DNA from: Cyclobacteriaceae bacterium
Lineage (GTDB): Bacteria > Bacteroidota > Bacteroidia > Cytophagales > Cyclobacteriaceae
Direction of reading: 5' to 3'
Length of the DNA stretch: 10,228 bases
Assembly: GCA_013140395.1 (NCBI GenBank)
Contig: JABFSY010000497.1
Location: 1 to 10,228 of the forward strand
Shown: positions 1,221-10,228 of the stretch, piece by piece
How the letters are laid out: the number at the start of each line of letters is the position of its first letter
Position numbering within the stretch: the stretch's first letter is position 1
The notes under the pieces: model-generated
What the model saw: the letters and a program-made list of their open reading frames with translations, nothing else
Databases searched by the model: none
What the model was told of the DNA's origin: nothing
Translations under genes and position numbers: made by a program

Positions 1221-2141
1221 TTAAACGGTTAAATAGGCTGCTCCAAAAACCCCTGCGCTGTCGCCCAACAATGGCTTTACAATGGGGGTATCTACCACGC
1301 CATTATTAAAAATATACTTTCGGGTTGACTCAATGCCATCTGTATAAATTTCATCAATGTTCCCCACACCACCCCCAATTACTATTACATCCGGATCAAT
1401 AATGTTTATGATGACACTGATTGCTTTTCCAAAAAAGTGCGACATGCGTTGAATCGTCTTGGTGGCGTTTTCGTCACCCACCTTATACAATTCATAAATC
1501 TCTTTAAGCCTAGTCTGTTGACCCGTTATTGAATGATAATATCTTTCCAATGAAGGGCCTGCCAATACTTTTTCCACGCAACCGCTCTTTCCGCAGTAAC
1601 ACGGTCCCCCCGATTCATCTAAATAATTGTGACCCCACTCGCCTCCAATTCCATGGAGCCCGTTGATTACTCTTCCGTCTACCACCAAGCCTCCACCCAC
1701 ACCAGTGCCCATGATTACGCCAAACACCACTTTTGCGTCCGGGTATTTCTCTTTCACTACGCCCATTCTTGCTTCAGCTAAGGCAAAACAATTGGCATCA
1801 TTGGCAATAAAAATCTCCAGACCCAATAACTTTTCCAGATCACTTTTCATCGGTTGAAAATTCATACACTCTGAATTACAGCCCTTCATGGTGCCAAGCT
1901 TAGGATCTAGCGTGCCGGGCGTACCGATTCCCAACTTTGAAGGCCGATAACCCATCTTGCCTTCCATCATCCGCACCAGCTTTTCTATTTGACCAAGAAT
2001 ATTCTGGTAGCCATGCTCCGCACCCGTGGGCACACGATCACGAAAAAGTATCTCATTTAAACCACCCGGGCCAAGGACTACTCCCTCCGCTTTCGTCCCC
2101 CCCAGATCGATGCCCCACAAAATATTCTTTCGGTCACTCAT
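1221..2141 (-). CDS. ROK-family sugar kinase, probable glucokinase
   Basis: A 306-residue cytoplasmic kinase that most likely phosphorylates free glucose to glucose-6-phosphate; fructose or another hexose is possible. The ATP-binding motif DLGGTK is at 12-17. The catalytic Asp is in ANDAN (Asp115). A glycine-rich phosphate loop MGTGVGGG lies at 144-151. The ROK zinc site is complete: His171 in EWGH, then CxCGxxGC with Cys181, Cys183 and Cys188, followed by Glu190. Length is typical. The start overlaps the stop of the glucosidase gene in ATGA (2141-2138), with no Shine-Dalgarno sequence, so translation is probably coupled. The order glucosidase then glucokinase suits direct capture of the released glucose. 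The family also includes repressors, but there is no N-terminal helix-turn-helix here, so this is an enzyme. Confidence 0.93.
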   Translation of the reverse strand: MSDRKNILWGIDLGGTKAEGVVLGPGGLNEILFRDRVPTGAEHGYQNILGQIEKLVRMMEGKMGYRPSKLGIGTPGTLDPKLGTMKGCNSECMNFQPMKSDLEKLLGLEIFIANDANCFALAEARMGVVKEKYPDAKVVFGVIMGTGVGGGLVVDGRVINGLHGIGGEWGHNYLDESGGPCYCGKSGCVEKVLAGPSLERYYHSITGQQTRLKEIYELYKVGDENATKTIQRMSHFFGKAISVIINIIDPDVIVIGGGVGNIDEIYTDGIESTRKYIFNNGVVDTPIVKPLLGDSAGVFGAAYLTV

Positions 2142-3778
2142 AGTTTATATATCATTGCTTCCCACGGGCGTAGACTTGAACTTACATCGGCATAGTTACC
2201 AATCAGTCTTTGCCCATTTTGCGGGATTGGAAAGGTACTATTCTCATTAGAAAAATTAAGAACTATCTGATATTTTTCTTTGCCCTCCACGCGGTTGTAA
2301 GAAAATAACCGTTCATGTTTTGTTTCAATGGGTTCATAAGAACCGTAGGTTAATGCTGGATGCGTCTTACGTAGACTCGCCATCGCGCGAAAATAATTGA
2401 GGATTGAATCGGGGTCATCCGCTTGAGCAACAACGTTAATTCGAGACGTGTTCGGATTTAGATCCATCCATGGATGACCAGTGGTGAACCCTCCAAAAAC
2501 ACTATCGTCCCACTGCATTGGAGTGCGCGCGTTGTCTCGTCCGGAATAGTTGGCTAGCGAAAGAAATTGATCTTCTGACATTCCTCGCTTTTGGGCTTCA
2601 CGCCATCCATTTTGAGTTTCTATGTCTTTGGAATCTGCGACCGCTTTTAGCTTGGTATTGGTCATCCCTATTTCATCACCCTGAAAAATAAAAGGCGTGC
2701 CCCTCATTGACAATAACAGAGTTATCAGTAACGTGGATGATTCTCTCCAATAGCTGCTATCATCTCCCCATCTGGAGACCATTCGAGCAAAATCATGATT
2801 GCCAAGAAATATACTTCCCCACCCGGTTTTGGCGAACGTATCGTCCCACGTCTTGAATACTTTCTTAAAATCAGTCATCGACCAGGGAATAGGGTCAAAT
2901 CGGCCACCAGGGCCTTGGTCCATAAACATATGACCAAAATGAAAAATCATATTTAAACCCTTCTCCGGATCTAAGTAATCAAGCGCGTTTTGTGGTGTAA
3001 TTCCCGGCCCTTCACCCACGGTCATTACATCTTTGTATTCATTGATGACTTTGGTTCTGACTTCTTCAATAAACTCTTGCAGTCGCGGACCATTTGAATA
3101 ATACCTGCGAATGGTTTCATTAAAATCAGCTGTATCTGTAGGCGGAAAATCAGTTCGCTTTGAAATCGCAGAAATCACATCAAGTCGAAGACCATCCACG
3201 CCTTTTTTCAACCAGTAGCGCATCAACTCGTGGATGTCCTTTCTCAAGGCGATGTTCTCCCAGTTTAGATCGGGTTGTTTGACTGAAAAAAGATGCAGGT
3301 AGTACTCGCCCGTCCGGTCATCTAATTGCCAGGCATTGCCACCAAAGAAAGAAGGCCAGTTATTTGGTGGATGTCCGTTTTTGCCCGGCTTCCAAAAATA
3401 GTAATCACGGAAAGAATTAGACTTCGATTTTTTTGACTCCTCAAACCAGGGATGCTCATCGGATGAATGGTTAAGGACCAAATCCATGATCAACTTCAGG
3501 CCGCGTTGGTGAAGCCCGGCCAACAGTTCATCGAAGTCTTGCATCGATCCGAATTCAGGTTGAATGGAATAGTAGTCGCTGATGTCGTAACCCCCGTCAT
3601 CATTCGGAGACTTATAAATTGGATTCAGCCAAACAGCATCCACACCGAGCGATTGGATGTAATCCAACTTTGAGATAATTCCCTGAAGATCACCTACTCC
3701 ATCCCCATTGCTGTCTTTAAAGCTTCTAGGATATATTTGATAGACAATCGCTTCCTTCCACCACACTCGGCTAGTCAT
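2138..3778 (-). CDS. GH13 alpha-glucosidase, probable oligo-1,6-glucosidase
   Basis: A 546-residue (alpha/beta)8-barrel glycoside hydrolase releasing glucose from the non-reducing end of short alpha-glucosides. All GH13 regions are present: DLVLNH at 99-104, GLRLDVI with nucleophile Asp200, GEGPG with acid/base Glu256, and GNHD with Asp329. An EF-hand-like calcium loop (DSNGDGVGD) is at 22-30 and the QPDLNW motif at 168-173. Val201 follows the nucleophile; in this family Val there favours alpha-1,6 bonds and Thr favours maltose, so isomaltose-type substrates are expected. No signal peptide is seen, so it is probably cytoplasmic. The frame is open back to 3943, but I choose ATG at 3778: the residues before it look like random translation of the upstream gene, and with this start the catalytic residues fall where Bacillus enzymes have them. 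The start overlaps the DUF3179 gene by 8 bases. Confidence 0.93.
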   Translation of the reverse strand: MTSRVWWKEAIVYQIYPRSFKDSNGDGVGDLQGIISKLDYIQSLGVDAVWLNPIYKSPNDDGGYDISDYYSIQPEFGSMQDFDELLAGLHQRGLKLIMDLVLNHSSDEHPWFEESKKSKSNSFRDYYFWKPGKNGHPPNNWPSFFGGNAWQLDDRTGEYYLHLFSVKQPDLNWENIALRKDIHELMRYWLKKGVDGLRLDVISAISKRTDFPPTDTADFNETIRRYYSNGPRLQEFIEEVRTKVINEYKDVMTVGEGPGITPQNALDYLDPEKGLNMIFHFGHMFMDQGPGGRFDPIPWSMTDFKKVFKTWDDTFAKTGWGSIFLGNHDFARMVSRWGDDSSYWRESSTLLITLLLSMRGTPFIFQGDEIGMTNTKLKAVADSKDIETQNGWREAQKRGMSEDQFLSLANYSGRDNARTPMQWDDSVFGGFTTGHPWMDLNPNTSRINVVAQADDPDSILNYFRAMASLRKTHPALTYGSYEPIETKHERLFSYNRVEGKEKYQIVLNFSNENSTFPIPQNGQRLIGNYADVSSSLRPWEAMIYKL

Positions 3779-4979
3779 TTTCTTTCGCTTTTGGTGGAAT
3801 AAACCGTTCAGTATTAAGATGGAACGTTTTCCAGGAATGCCAAAACTCCTGATATGAGGGAAGCACTTCAAGTTGGCTGCCAGCATATTTTCCACTTTCA
3901 CATTTGCCGTTCCAATTCCATCGCGAACCCGATTGCTGATCAATCAATACATTCAAACTATCCTTTAACAAAAACTGAAGAGTATCCATTCCCGCAACGG
4001 ACACCCAGGTGTGAAAAGAAGCAGAGTCGGCCTCCACTGCTAATAATATCGGGCGACCGCTGATTTGGTCATTTATCACTCTTCGTTCGACCAACTCATT
4101 CCAGTCATAGGCTCTCGCAAACAAACCCATCGGCACACCCACCACCCACGATTTATCTTTCCACGATAACGAATCACGACCCTCAAGGCTCCCCTCCATC
4201 TTTCCTTCGTCATACTTTGCCAATGTCTCATACTGATCTTTAAATTTTGGGTCGGGTTGAAGAATCAACGATTCAGGGTGCCTCGAAAGCCATGCCCGAA
4301 GTGTCATTTGTTGAGAAGTTATTTCGGTCAGTTGTGCTCCCTTCAATGGGCCTATGATGGCTGTTCCGTTGACTTGTCGCCACCAACTTTTTGTGGTAGC
4401 ATCTTCAAACATGGCGTTAAAATGATCCATGCCAACTAGCCTGAATGTTTCCGGCTGGCCGTTGACCAATGGGCTAAACACACGGCCAGATCTGCACACC
4501 GTGCAGTAAGTAACCATGATTGGTTGGCCCGCAATAGTGTCACGGACCTGGTGGTGATAACCAATGATTTCTATTGGATAAGCTCTAGACTTACCATTCA
4601 GTGAAACGCCTATAACAAGCTGATTATCAATTATCTTACTATCTTTTGCTTTTAGTAACGAAACAGACTCGGATTGATAGAACATTTTGTCGGCCAGAAA
4701 CTGAAAATTGAAAGCATAGCAGACAATTATCCAAAATGCGAGCATGGACGCAACAGTCCATTTGATGTAGGCATTGTTCCCAACTAAATAGAAGAATGCG
4801 GGATAACCTATCATTAAAACACCTACGATTCGAAACCACCAGATATAATTTTGAATGAAGTAAGCAAGCTCAACCACCTCATCCACTTGACTTCCCGGAA
4901 AGGGCATGATATAATACACACGTGCTACCTCCACCCCGATTAAAAGAACGATGCCGACTAAAAACAATAAAATCTTCAT
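3771..4979 (-). CDS. Membrane-anchored DUF3179 protein of unknown function
   Basis: A 402-residue protein with three hydrophobic segments at about 3-20, 45-66 and 74-96, followed by a soluble domain from about 115 to 395. The soluble part matches DUF3179: YCTVCRSG (Cys159 and Cys162), then GMDHFNAMFED, and a C-terminal GSRWNW plus FWHSWKTFH pattern. The function of the family is not known to me. The CxxC pair with nearby His142/His143 might bind a metal or act in redox, but that is only a guess. The membrane topology suggests the domain faces either the periplasm or the cytoplasm; the sequence does not decide. The start overlaps the glpD stop in ATGA (4979-4976), and the 3' end overlaps the glucosidase start by 8 bases. 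It is therefore made together with glycerol-phosphate and glucoside enzymes, an unexpected partner. Confidence 0.88.
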   Translation of the reverse strand: MKILLFLVGIVLLIGVEVARVYYIMPFPGSQVDEVVELAYFIQNYIWWFRIVGVLMIGYPAFFYLVGNNAYIKWTVASMLAFWIIVCYAFNFQFLADKMFYQSESVSLLKAKDSKIIDNQLVIGVSLNGKSRAYPIEIIGYHHQVRDTIAGQPIMVTYCTVCRSGRVFSPLVNGQPETFRLVGMDHFNAMFEDATTKSWWRQVNGTAIIGPLKGAQLTEITSQQMTLRAWLSRHPESLILQPDPKFKDQYETLAKYDEGKMEGSLEGRDSLSWKDKSWVVGVPMGLFARAYDWNELVERRVINDQISGRPILLAVEADSASFHTWVSVAGMDTLQFLLKDSLNVLIDQQSGSRWNWNGKCESGKYAGSQLEVLPSYQEFWHSWKTFHLNTERFIPPKAKEND

Positions 4980-6758: not shown

Positions 6759-7598
6759 ATGGAAATATTCTTAAAAGCCGATGCCTGGCTTGCTCTTATA
6801 ACTCTATGTTTTTTAGAAATTGTCTTAGGAATTGACAATATTATTTTCATCTCGATTGTTTCCAACAAACTACCCGAAGAACAACGCGGTAAAGCGAGAA
6901 ACATAGGTCTGTTTTTGGCCATGTTTGTTCGCATTGTTTTCTTGCTTTGCATCACTTGGATCATCAGTTTCAAAGAGCCGTTGTTTGCCGTCAATGACTT
7001 CATGCCGGATTGGCTGATCAAATTCCTGGGGTTCCATGGAGACCATACGTTTAGCGGCCGCGATCTAATCCTCGGCTTTGGAGGGTTATTTCTGATCGCA
7101 AAAAGCACCATGGAAATAAACCACGAAATGGAGGGTGAAGAAGACGAAGACGTAGTGAGTGGTAAGCCAAAGGTACCTACCCTGAGTGCCACCATCTTTC
7201 AGATTATTTTGCTTGATATCATCTTCTCATTTGATTCCATTCTTACGGCCATCGGGATAGTGGATCAAGTCATCATCATGATTTTTGCGGTTATGATTTC
7301 AATTGGCGTAATGATGTTCTTCTCCGGAGCCATTAGTAAATTCATCCAGCAGCATCCCTCCATGGAGGTACTGGCATTAGGCTTCTTGATCTTAATTGGC
7401 TTCATGTTGTTTTTAGAGGCGTTGGAATTTGTCGTTCCAAAGGGATATATCTACTTCGCGGTGGCTTTTTCACTCCTCATTGAGCTCACAAACATCAGGG
7501 TTAAAAAGAAGAGGAATGCTAAAAAGAAAAAGCCAGTTGTACTTCACAAGCCTTTTTCCGAAAGCGAAATCAATGACGCGGTCAAAAAGATGAACTGA
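6759..7598 (+). CDS. TerC-family integral membrane protein (putative metal ion exporter)
   Basis: A 279-residue polytopic membrane protein with about seven hydrophobic segments (roughly 9-31, 48-70, 104-116, 144-168, 172-192, 203-225, 229-245). The two repeat motifs of the TerC fold are present: EIVLGIDN at 20-27 and LLDIIFSFDSILTAIG at 151-166. Their acidic residues (Glu20, Asp26, Asp153, Asp159) lie within the membrane and are the likely cation site. Some TerC relatives (Alx, MeeF-type) export manganese, so metal homeostasis is the best guess; tellurite resistance is the historical name only. An acidic loop lies at 123-131 and a Lys/Arg-rich tail at 249-258, both probably cytoplasmic. No Shine-Dalgarno sequence precedes the ATG, but it sits exactly at the start of the first amphipathic/membrane segment. 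It is the first gene of the plus-strand run. Confidence 0.93.
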   Translation: MEIFLKADAWLALITLCFLEIVLGIDNIIFISIVSNKLPEEQRGKARNIGLFLAMFVRIVFLLCITWIISFKEPLFAVNDFMPDWLIKFLGFHGDHTFSGRDLILGFGGLFLIAKSTMEINHEMEGEEDEDVVSGKPKVPTLSATIFQIILLDIIFSFDSILTAIGIVDQVIIMIFAVMISIGVMMFFSGAISKFIQQHPSMEVLALGFLILIGFMLFLEALEFVVPKGYIYFAVAFSLLIELTNIRVKKKRNAKKKKPVVLHKPFSESEINDAVKKMN

Positions 7599-7622: not shown

Positions 7623-8165
7623 ATGACTGAATTACAGCCTGATCCTGACAGGTACCCCATTGGAAAGTTTAAGCCTGCCTCAGAATATACCACCCTTGAA
7701 ATAGCTGACTTCATTTCGCGCATAGAAACACTGCCGGGAAAACTTTCGCACGCGGTGACTGGTCTAAATGACAATCAATTGGATACTCCTTATCGGGAGG
7801 GCGGATGGACCATTCGACAAGTGATTCACCATGTAGCCGACAGTCATATGAATGCCTACATAAGAATCAAGTGGACACTTACAGAAGACAGCCCCGTGAT
7901 TAAGGCATACGATGAAAAAGGGTGGGCAGAGACACCAGAAACAAAACTGGACATTGATCTCTCGCTAAATCTACTTCAATCACTGCACGCAAAATTTGTC
8001 TCTTTAGCAAAACGAATTTCTCAAAAAGACCTAAGCAGAAGCTTCATTCACCCGGATACAAAAAAGGAAATCAGCCTCGGGCAGCTTTTAGGTATGTATG
8101 CCTGGCATGGCGAGCATCATTTGGCGCATATAGCTGCTCTGAAAGTAAAAAGGGGCTGGACCTAA
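7623..8165 (+). CDS. YfiT/DinB-family putative metal-dependent hydrolase (bacillithiol transferase-like)
   Basis: A 180-residue four-helix-bundle protein of the DinB/YfiT superfamily. The stretches RYPIGKFKP (10-18), LDTPYREGGWTIRQVIHHVADSHMN (two parts around 53-77), YDEKGW (96-101) and WHGEHHLAHI (161-170) match Bacillus YfiT closely, as I recall it. A metal is held by three His in YfiT; the spacing points to His69, His162 and His166 here. In Firmicutes such proteins transfer bacillithiol to reactive compounds, and many Bacteroidota also make bacillithiol, so thiol conjugation in detoxification is plausible but inferred. The gene begins 24 bases after the TerC stop and ends 32 bases before the hydrolase gene, so cotranscription is likely. 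No ribosome binding site is seen. Confidence 0.9.
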   Translation: MTELQPDPDRYPIGKFKPASEYTTLEIADFISRIETLPGKLSHAVTGLNDNQLDTPYREGGWTIRQVIHHVADSHMNAYIRIKWTLTEDSPVIKAYDEKGWAETPETKLDIDLSLNLLQSLHAKFVSLAKRISQKDLSRSFIHPDTKKEISLGQLLGMYAWHGEHHLAHIAALKVKRGWT

Positions 8166-8197
8166 GTGATCGAAAAAGCAGGCGCAGCAAAGTATCG

Positions 8198-9130
8198 ATG
8201 AAAAATTATGCACGTCCCACATTTCTACCCAACCGCCACCTAGAAACAATTTATCCGTCACTTTTTAGAAAGGTGGAATTGCGGCCCTACGAACGCGAAC
8301 GGATTGAAACGCCTGATAACGACTTCCTAGATTTAGACTTTCTGCGACAAGGCGCGTCACAGCTTGTCGTCATTTCTCATGGGCTCGAAGGCAACACTGA
8401 TAGAGCCTACATAAAGGGAATGGCAAAAGCATTTTTTGACAAAGGCTTTGATGTATTGGCTTGGAACTATAGAGGCTGTAGCGGTGAGATGAATCGGCAG
8501 CCTCGTTTTTATCACAGTGGAGCTACCGAAGATCTAAAAACGGTTATTGAAAAAGTCTACCCTACCTACCAATCCATCTCGTTAGTTGGCTTCAGTTTGG
8601 GCGGCAACCTGACATTAAAATTTTTAGGTGAAAGTAGCACCTCCTACAAAAAAATAACCAAGGCTGTTGTTTTTTCAGTACCCCTTGATTTACACACAAG
8701 CTGCCGAGAAATCATGAAGCCCTCCAACTGGATTTATCATCAGCGATTCCTTAAAAGTCTGAAAACAAAAGTGCTTCAGAAGTCAAACAGGAAGCCAGTC
8801 GCCCAAATAGAGCATCTTAATGAGGTCAAGACATTAATGGAGTTTGATGATCACTTTACGGCTCCCATTCACGGCTTCGCGAATGCGGTAGACTATTACG
8901 CCCGTTGTAGTTCCATTCATTTCCTGGAAGCTATTCAAACAAACACGTTGATCGTCAATGCGAAAAATGACCCATTCCTTAGCCTTGAGTGTTTTCCTGA
9001 CCTGAAAGGACATACCTTTGTAAAAACCGAAAGCCCACAGCACGGTGGCCATGTGGGCTTTGCTCATTTTGGCGGAGACGGACTCTATTGGTCGGAGTTG
9101 AGGGCGCTAGACTTTATTATCAAGACATGA
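8198..9130 (+). CDS. YheT-type alpha/beta hydrolase
   Basis: A 310-residue alpha/beta-hydrolase of the YheT/UPF0017 group, a cytoplasmic esterase-like family with uncertain natural substrate. Family motifs appear in order: FLPNRHLETIYP at 9-20, ISHGLEGNTDRAYI at 59-72 (oxyanion-hole region), AWNYRGCSGE at 88-97, RFYHSGATEDL at 103-113. The nucleophile elbow is GFSLGG with Ser133. The other triad members are probably Asp258 (NDPF) and His285 (HGGHVGF). Length is normal. The ATG at 8198 has only a weak purine-rich sequence upstream, but homology begins right at the N-terminus. The stop codon overlaps the start of the SRAP-family gene in ATGA (9127-9130), so the two are probably translated as a coupled pair. 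Confidence 0.92.
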   Translation: MKNYARPTFLPNRHLETIYPSLFRKVELRPYERERIETPDNDFLDLDFLRQGASQLVVISHGLEGNTDRAYIKGMAKAFFDKGFDVLAWNYRGCSGEMNRQPRFYHSGATEDLKTVIEKVYPTYQSISLVGFSLGGNLTLKFLGESSTSYKKITKAVVFSVPLDLHTSCREIMKPSNWIYHQRFLKSLKTKVLQKSNRKPVAQIEHLNEVKTLMEFDDHFTAPIHGFANAVDYYARCSSIHFLEAIQTNTLIVNAKNDPFLSLECFPDLKGHTFVKTESPQHGGHVGFAHFGGDGLYWSELRALDFIIKT

Positions 9131-9819
9131 TCGAACGTTTTTCCGTAGGAGCTTCTGCGAGCCGATTGGCTGCACATTATAACACTGAAGAGCCAACCTT
9201 CCTTCCCCGATACAATGGCGCACCTTCACAACTGTTTCCTGTTCTAACTAGCGAAAGCCCAGAGGGGTTTTCCTATTTCTATTGGGGCGTTGCTCCCCAA
9301 TGGGCGAAGAATAAGTCAATAGCCGAGCGACTGATCAATGTACGGGCCGAACAGATTGCCGAAAAGCCAGTGCTTAAGCAAAACTTGAAAAAATTCAGAT
9401 GCATCGTACCAGCCGATGGATTTTATGCCTGGAAAAAAGTTGGAAAGAAGACGATGATCCCATGGCGATTTGTTCTTCCGTCAAAAGAAGTATTCTCGAT
9501 AGCTGGATTATGGGAAGAATACGAAGAAGATGGCGATGCATTCCACACGTTCACGATCATTACCACCACAGCTAACGGTCTATCCGCCACCGTTTCGGAT
9601 AGACAACCCCTTATTCTCTCCAAAGAAGGCGAAGCAATTTGGCTAAAAAAAGATGCGGAAGAATCCGAACTACTTGATCTTCTGAAACGGGCAAATGGCA
9701 TTGACTTTGACGGGTTCACCGTCTCACCGCAATTGAATTCAATTCAGTTCGACCGTCCCTCGTTGCTGCTACCTGTTCCGGCAGCCGATCAGTTTGGGAA
9801 TTTGACTTTGTTTGACTGA
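9127..9819 (+). CDS. SRAP (YedK/HMCES) family protein lacking catalytic residues
   Basis: A 230-residue protein with the SRAP fold, whose active members shield abasic sites in single-stranded DNA by a Cys2 thiazolidine crosslink. Landmarks are RYNGAPSQ (28-35), YWGVAPQWAKN (52-62), INVRAE (70-75), CIVPADGFYAWKK (92-104) and SDRQPLIL (157-164). Compared with YedK, Cys2 is Ile2 (start MIERFS instead of MCGRF), Glu105 is Ala101 and His160 is Ser157; only Asn75 (Asn71 here) and the following Arg (Arg73) remain. The changes need two or three base substitutions each, and the frame is intact over full family length. ATG at 9127 is chosen over 9088: it overlaps the hydrolase stop in ATGA and puts RFS where the family N-terminus has RF. 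The longer start would bury this end, which the family needs free. It is expected to bind DNA but not to crosslink; that is inference. Confidence 0.9.
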   Translation: MIERFSVGASASRLAAHYNTEEPTFLPRYNGAPSQLFPVLTSESPEGFSYFYWGVAPQWAKNKSIAERLINVRAEQIAEKPVLKQNLKKFRCIVPADGFYAWKKVGKKTMIPWRFVLPSKEVFSIAGLWEEYEEDGDAFHTFTIITTTANGLSATVSDRQPLILSKEGEAIWLKKDAEESELLDLLKRANGIDFDGFTVSPQLNSIQFDRPSLLLPVPAADQFGNLTLFD

Positions 9820-9845: not shown

Positions 9846-10103
9846 TCATTGTGCTAGCTTGAAAAAAATTGGAATCACCATTCTTTGTTTAACTGGCTTA
9901 CCGCGCTGACGACCTGGCGTCCAGGGTGGTGCATTTTTTAGTATCCGAATCGCCTCCTCTTCCAAACCAGCACCCAAACTGTTCACGGTAGTAACATCAG
10001 TAATACTTCCATCTTTGTCCACAACGAATTGTACATAGATTTTTCCCTCAACACCCATTCTGCGGGCGGGCGCAGGATACCTTATGCTCTCAGAAACATA
10101 TTT
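9846..10103 (-). pseudogene. TonB C-terminal domain fragment, 5' end lost
   Basis: The reading frame encodes a complete TonB C-terminal domain: KYVSESIRYPAPARRMGVEG, then VQFVVDKDGSITDV, then WTPGRQRGKPVKQRMVIPI and FFKL near the end. This domain contacts the TonB box of outer-membrane transporters in the periplasm. Bacteroidota proteins of this type have a membrane anchor and linker before it. Here homology stops at the codon ending at 10103, and beyond lies an IS-like end. The frame stays open to an in-frame TAG at 10149-10151, with only a TTG (10124) as a possible start and no signal sequence or transmembrane segment. So the fragment should not give a working TonB protein. It converges with the SRAP gene across 26 bases. 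A short cytosolic protein begun at TTG cannot be excluded. Confidence 0.7.
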
Positions 10104-10104
10104 A

Positions 10105-10228
10105 GGGTCTGCTGAAAAACTCAAATAGTTTATAATGGGGCTACAGAGCTAATTTTTTTTGAACTTAGCACTAATCAAGTGCAAGCAAAAATGGCTAAAG
10201 CCCTAAAAAACCGTGCATCTAAGCAGGC
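10105..10228 (+). mobile_element. Probable insertion-sequence end (IS1182/IS5-like), truncated by window
   Basis: Starting where TonB homology ends, the sequence GGGTCTGCTGAAAAACTC (10105-10122) resembles the terminal inverted repeats of IS1182/IS5-type elements as I remember them. It is followed by an AT-rich leader and an ATG at 10191 opening a frame into the window edge. The other end and the inverted partner lie outside the window, so the family is not proven. The insertion explains the loss of the 5' part of the TonB gene. Confidence 0.5.
10191..10228 (+). CDS. Start of a possible transposase gene (12 codons visible)
   Basis: ATG at 10191 begins MAKALKNRASKQ and runs off the window. The basic start is compatible with IS1182-type transposases, which often begin with a Lys/Arg-rich segment ending in Gln before a Pro-Pro-Ser motif. 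Twelve residues cannot prove it. The main support is position, 86 bases inside the presumed IS end and reading away from it. Confidence 0.4.
   Translation, partial: MAKALKNRASKQ

Follow-up and report, generated by a model that had tools for sequence, protein, structure and literature searches.

The literature that we found on SRAP proteins, judged mostly by titles and the openings of abstracts, treats them mainly as abasic-site crosslinkers, and no paper listed there deals with inactive SRAPs. For YedK, the SRAP protein of Escherichia coli, Paulin et al. 2022 (PMC9436759) describe what becomes of the chemistry when catalytic residues are removed: the C2A variant still forms a Schiff base and acts as an AP lyase on AP DNA at 0.05 per min, the C2A E105Q variant is 25-fold slower than C2A, and Cys-blocked YedK carrying E105Q or H160Q shows no cleavage and keeps DNA binding. 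The same study also assays the SRAP domain of HMCES as a crosslinker. In other words, the YedK mutants imply that loss of the cysteine alone would leave a protein that nicks DNA, and that loss of the glutamate as well would leave one that is nearly inert. There is also precedent for a SRAP protein working without its covalent chemistry; according to PMC10250235, one role of HMCES requires DNA binding and not crosslinking.

Here we describe a SRAP gene of a Cyclobacteriaceae bacterium in which the cysteine, the glutamate and the histidine are all replaced. The stretch of DNA analyzed, hereafter the window, is 10,228 nucleotides long (contig JABFSY010000497.1), and the positions of the features under discussion are collected in Table 1.

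Table 1. The hydrolase gene, the SRAP gene and selected SRAP codons, numbered from the first letter of the window
Feature	Positions	Strand	Remark
YheT/PRK10985-like alpha/beta hydrolase	8198..9130	+	below NCBIfam cut-off; overlaps SRAP start by 4 bases
SRAP-fold protein, 230 aa	9127..9819	+	without Cys2, Glu and His; full-length ORF
Codon 2, ATC (Ile)	9130..9132	+	replaces nucleophile Cys2
Codon 3, Glu	9133..9135	+	compared across orthologs
Codons 71-73, Asn-Val-Arg	9337..9345	+	
Codon 101, GCC (Ala)	9427..9429	+	replaces YedK Glu105
Codon 157, TCG (Ser)	9595..9597	+	replaces YedK His160
Codon 159, Arg of HDR motif	9601..9603	+	
C-terminal tail DQFGNLTLFD, residues 221-230	9787..9816	+	clamp-binding-like short motif

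An intact SRAP fold without its catalytic residues

The product of the SRAP gene matches PF02586 (SRAP) with E 1.9e-51 over positions 1-213/214, scoring 175 bits where the cut-off is 27.1; its AlphaFold model has a mean pLDDT of 87, and the structural matches shown for that model comprise YedK, HMCES and entries from structural genomics that share its size and fold. The original prediction for this DNA was that Cys2, Glu and His are all replaced in an otherwise intact SRAP protein and that Asn71 and Arg73 stay. Both points are confirmed, with Ile2, Ala101 and Ser157 standing against Cys2, Glu105 and His160 of YedK and with Asn-Val-Arg in place at codons 71-73. Could a wrongly called start codon conceal the cysteine? 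We rejected this possibility because relatives begin at the same residue; at another locus, L051, which starts with GTG and is canonical, a wrong start had made the cysteine seem missing. Additionally, Ile2 should block the removal of Met1, which would leave the N-terminus out of position for the chemistry. Membership of the window SRAP in a defense system was likewise rejected, as a search with the PADLOC anti-phage defense models at E 0.001 matched 0 families for the SRAP protein, the hydrolase and the Cys-bearing paralogue described below.

Elsewhere in the window, an ORF for a TonB C-terminal domain (9846-10124, minus strand) has a TTG start only and lies near the contig end, where it is probably cut off. 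The GH13 ORF as listed (2138-3943, minus strand) also begins at TTG and overlaps a DUF3179 ORF (3771-4979); the Met of MTSRVWWKEAIVYQ, farther in, is the more probable start. A TerC-family gene (6759-7598) scores, below cut-off, on riboswitch-linked NCBIfam subfamilies, and an Rfam search of the window returned no RNA at gathering score and no riboswitch.

Selection on a Cys-less clade

The window SRAP gene is under strong purifying selection, with dN/dS values of 0.076, 0.059 and 0.048 against L003, L004 and L005, respectively (dS is saturated in the pairs L013-L016 and L052-L061). The claim that the losses reflect neither a read error nor simple decay is borne out by ratios of 0.05-0.08 against three close relatives and by the full length of the gene. 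A ratio near 1 and close relatives with an intact triad were looked for as signs of decay; what was found instead, beside those ratios, was a window clade of 40 rows (SH-aLRT 93 on a tree of 130 rows) in which Cys is present in 0/40 and Glu in 0/40. In one Cys-less gene, L012 (about 7824-8513), residue 103 is followed by an in-frame TAA, which marks either a pseudogene or an assembly error. Ordinary decay or assembly error could be read into the absent catalytic residues of the window gene and into the stop codon of L012, but the low dN/dS, the full length, the recurrence of the same losses in many independent assemblies, and the conserved core and tail render this explanation extremely improbable, and for the clade as a whole the low dN/dS and the conserved core and tail refute it.

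Among 121 proteins (the query plus the best 120 of 5884 hits), Glu is found in none, His in one, and Cys in 0 of the 118 with residue 2 in place. A scan of named genomes, of which we consider the best 80 of 158 passing loci, gave 51 Cys-less loci, from Ohtaekwangia, Chryseolinea, Dawidia, Chryseosolibacter, Pseudochryseolinea and many MAGs, as well as 29 loci with Cys, namely L051 and, at 48-51% identity, those of Algoriphagus, Cyclobacterium and their relatives. It had been asked whether Ile2, Ala101 and Ser157 define a conserved clade. The Cys-less form does make up such a clade (22 rows, support 99/96 on a second, more careful tree), but these three residues do not define it. In the 59 unique window-type sequences (no Cys2 and a GNLTLF end, minus three placed elsewhere in the tree, so that both the missing Cys and the letters of the tail follow from how the set was made), position 2 is I/V/T/L/S/F, position 101 is A/V/G/I/S/T/C, and position 157 is T/S/Y/H/Q/A/C/D. 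As all three positions vary, a conserved new triad was rejected. In sequence terms, the clade is defined by no Cys and no Glu, plus Glu or Asp at position 3.

Repeated loss across the ortholog group

The window SRAP belongs to an ortholog group of its order, probably Cytophagales; outside the order, among the listed matches in 295 class-wide genomes (E up to 1e-20), none gave an alignment that began at residues 1-2 and extended over the tail. Sampling covered 148 genomes of the family and 194 of the order, plus 80 hand-chosen further places, mostly matches reaching the C-terminus. The set comprises 185 unique tail-bearing orthologs and was picked by the tail pattern, which makes tail counts within it partly circular. 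Two of its members, L188 and L255, are fragments with residue 2 unseen, leaving 183; Cys, Glu and His are all present in 53 of these, none of the three in 101, Cys only in 15, His only in 5, Glu only in 5, Glu and His in 3, and Cys and Glu in 1. The orthologs L166 and L210, with Pro2, and L192, with Ser2, keep Glu and His; judging from YedK C2A, they may have AP lyase activity and not be dead.

How many times were these residues lost? On the first tree (130 rows, trait columns excluded, a quick search that left 47 of 127 forks open), the minimum number of changes is 11 for Cys2, 11 for Glu101 and 10 for His157, and on the second (61 rows picked by hand from these, with the longest branches omitted along with the majority of the highly divergent rows), it is 4, 7 and 8, respectively. 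For example, the inactive L197 and L205 (100/99) are nested on the second tree in a seven-row clade (100/99) whose remaining five rows are canonical, and the inactive L198 groups with the canonical L051 and L193 (100/99). Forcing all Glu-less rows together was rejected with p-AU 3e-99 and forcing all Cys-less rows together was rejected more weakly with p 0.02, both on 61 rows, and these p values are not fully independent because the groups were set by state after the first tree, on hand-picked rows. A single origin of all inactive forms is thereby ruled out for Glu101 and, more weakly, for Cys2; as read from the aligned sequences, the catalytic residues have been shed repeatedly and independently within the ortholog group.

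Residues that remain

In the 59 window-type sequences, Glu is retained in 0/59 and His in 4/59. Arg4, Asn30, Arg91 and Lys107 are present in 59/59, Asn71, Glu75 and Arg159 in 58/59, and Arg or Lys at position 73 in 50/59. We take the retained residues to be ones that face DNA in YedK and HMCES. Two arginines are predicted at the pocket edge in PMC3765255. Across the 102 fully inactive sequences (a count that includes fragments entered as Cys-less; the recount is 101), no variation is seen at Asn30, Trp53, Gly54, Cys92, Pro161 or Trp172 wherever the position is present, and next to none at Arg91, Lys103, Lys107, Lys108 and Pro112. The relaxed positions are Asn71 (83), Glu75 (72) and Arg159 (63, the most relaxed), and Arg73 and Arg159 are frequently lost outside the window-type set. 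With Arg159 in 63/102 and Asn71 in 83/102, DNA binding may not be common to all lineages.

Position 3 is Gly in 52/53 canonical orthologs, Glu or Asp in 88/102 fully inactive sequences and Glu or Asp in 58/59 window-type ones, which places a negative charge next to the former AP-site pocket. This acidic residue, the only one gained with the loss of the triad, could speak for a new enzyme activity in a remodeled pocket, where Glu3, or some other retained residue, would supply the acid. Yet positions 2, 101 and 157 have no conserved replacement, Glu/Asp3 is not universal, and the other invariant residues of inactive members are, except at tail positions, invariant or nearly so in catalytic members too. 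A new activity, which was among the readings first offered, thus finds little positive support, and we consider it distinctly unlikely.

The C-terminal tail

Residues 225-230 of the window SRAP have pLDDT under 50 and are predicted to be disordered, and the tail is highly conserved though predicted disordered, as would be the case for a short binding motif. In a second selection of 151 unique sequences, made by hydrolase linkage instead of by tail, [YLFM]xLF plus at most 2 residues ends 151/151, and Cys, Glu and His occur together in 48 of the 151. The rest of the alignment without the tail consists of canonical and paralogous sequences, the truncated L228, and L232, an ortholog in which the motif is followed by eight extra residues.

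The consensus for binding to the bacterial sliding clamp, as given in PMC4549789, is QLxLF, mostly C-terminal. NLTLF of the window SRAP matches three of its four fixed positions, with Asn for Gln, and some canonical members carry Ser or Thr at the Gln position. Within the same genome, Pol IV (Pfam IMS; L272) has a C-terminal QLKLF, a clamp-like motif is absent from the second IMS-domain ORF (ImuB-like, L273), and the DnaE2-like ORF, incomplete as seen, shows no motif. A similar C-terminal motif is present in 5 of 842 other neighborhood ORFs, 3 of which we take to be Pol IV-like from a motif and their resemblance to the Pol IV of this genome, and GNx[TS]LF is present in none. Of the listed relatives of the Cys-bearing paralogue, 94/120 end in LF (plus at most 2 residues) and 75/120 in Qx[STDN]LF, and 13/26 fetched second SRAP copies end in LF. 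SRAPs of the order may be clamp clients more generally; the paralogue of this genome ends in QQGSLF and its Pol IV in QLKLF.

The hydrolase neighbor and the Cys-bearing paralogue

The YheT-like hydrolase is upstream in 81/81 loci compared, adjoining the SRAP gene except at L054, where the two are separated by a small gene, and its GxSxGG motif is kept in 79/80 full-length copies (81 copies in all). More broadly, it lies directly upstream in 150 of the 179 orthologs that had 600 nt or more of preceding sequence, canonical and inactive alike, and 150/151 hydrolase matches stop no more than 220 nt from where the SRAP gene starts; in 29/179 it was not found within the upstream stretch searched. 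This shared neighbor indicates that, for the most part, canonical and Cys-less SRAPs are orthologous and occupy a single locus, rather than one of them being a stray spare copy. Such close linkage to an enzyme with a conserved motif raises the idea that the SRAP protein is a partner or regulator of the hydrolase, its fold binding the enzyme or the product and its tail binding the hydrolase and not the clamp. We judge this idea unlikely; the linkage also covers catalytically intact SRAPs (48/151), the paralogue of the same genome has the QGSLF end and no YheT-like neighbor in the 1421 nt upstream, and the 29 orthologs without a hydrolase match have the tail nonetheless, seven of them (L262-L268) being inactive, coming from a family with 1.0-1.6 Mb genomes and ending in an NYSLF tail. 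That a fully inactive SRAP is kept in this small-genome family, where no hydrolase was found, suggests a needed function.

A canonical paralogue had been proposed as something to look for, and the genome (81% complete) does hold one further SRAP, L002:1380-2165, which is Cys-bearing and begins MCFSKSY. Might the window SRAP then regulate a true SRAP, as a dominant-negative or dimer partner? We searched 50 genomes, 49 with the Cys-less gene (the other, G049, has the canonical L051). Among 26 fetched second copies, a number that excludes three further weak or partial matches, 25 begin Met-Cys, and the 26th was read only as a piece without its N-terminus. These copies speak for a regulator, but no other SRAP was found at E 1e-3 in 25/49 genomes with the Cys-less gene. 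Two isolates, Ohtaekwangia koreensis and Chryseosolibacter indicus, are among these 25, and many of the rest are MAGs that may be incomplete. The proposal of a paralogue regulator is weakened as a result, and as a general role we regard it as very unlikely.

A proposed function

By analogy with the published YedK mutants, the pattern of the window clade (Cys and Glu gone, few His left) fits the removal of both functions: crosslinking has very probably been lost from the window SRAP, and lyase activity is probably absent as well. Motif resemblance lends moderate support to clamp docking, and the retained residues suggest that the protein could bind and shield DNA. Of the three readings first offered, a DNA-binding pseudoenzyme appears to fit best. 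We favor the view, credible but a little short of probable, that the window SRAP is a clamp-docked protein kept for a non-covalent DNA job without abasic-site crosslinking, since the protein retains the fold, the greater part of the residues presumed to face DNA, and a tail that resembles a clamp-binding motif. The flexible GNLTLFD C-terminus would dock on the bacterial sliding clamp and bring the SRAP core to the replication fork, where the core, with its Arg, Asn and Lys residues and minus the triad, would transiently hold single-stranded or junction DNA at lesions. The DNA so held would be shielded, or the protein would compete with Pol IV for the clamp, with no long-lived protein-DNA crosslink as the outcome.

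Several observations stand against clamp-docked DNA binding. Asn replaces the consensus Gln in the tail, the motif of L232 is not terminal, and two other polymerase genes of this genome offer no motif, L273 lacking it and the DnaE2-like ORF being incomplete. Additionally, Arg159 and Asn71 are relaxed across the wider inactive group, the acidic Glu/Asp3 adjoins the former AP-site pocket, the gene is linked most strongly to a hydrolase gene and not to one for repair, and one Cys-less gene, L012, has its in-frame stop.

Whatever the exact mechanism, the SRAP ortholog group probably keeps a second job independent of the crosslinking chemistry; purifying selection, the repeated dropping of crosslinking residues and the kept C-terminal motif point to a second job of the fold, perhaps at the clamp. 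A bolder hypothesis, possible but speculative, is that clamp docking and non-covalent DNA binding are the conserved function of the whole ortholog group and that crosslinking is a dispensable extra, shed many times within the order. If so, the group would offer a natural series of SRAPs: dead ones, ones with Cys kept and Glu and His gone, and possibly lyase-like ones with Pro2 or Ser2 and both Glu and His. The inactive orthologs provide natural separation-of-function variants for such a second job, and database names such as 'SOS response-associated peptidase' and 'YedK' mislead about the chemistry of such proteins.

Comparison with known SRAP proteins

In structural alignment, YedK and the window SRAP share 23% identity; Cys2, Glu105 and His160 are present in YedK and their equivalents are absent from the window SRAP, whose GNLTLFD tail falls outside the part alignable with YedK. 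The SRAP domain of human HMCES likewise retains the catalytic residues that the window SRAP is without. The L002-type paralogue resembles the window SRAP in its family and has the C-terminus given above, and it differs in having Cys2, Glu and His and in occupying a different locus. The canonical MCGR orthologs of Algoriphagus and Cyclobacterium, in contrast, share the locus after the same hydrolase, 48-51% identity and a similar tail, GNYTLFG, and they differ from the window SRAP in that Cys2, Gly3, Glu and His are all retained.
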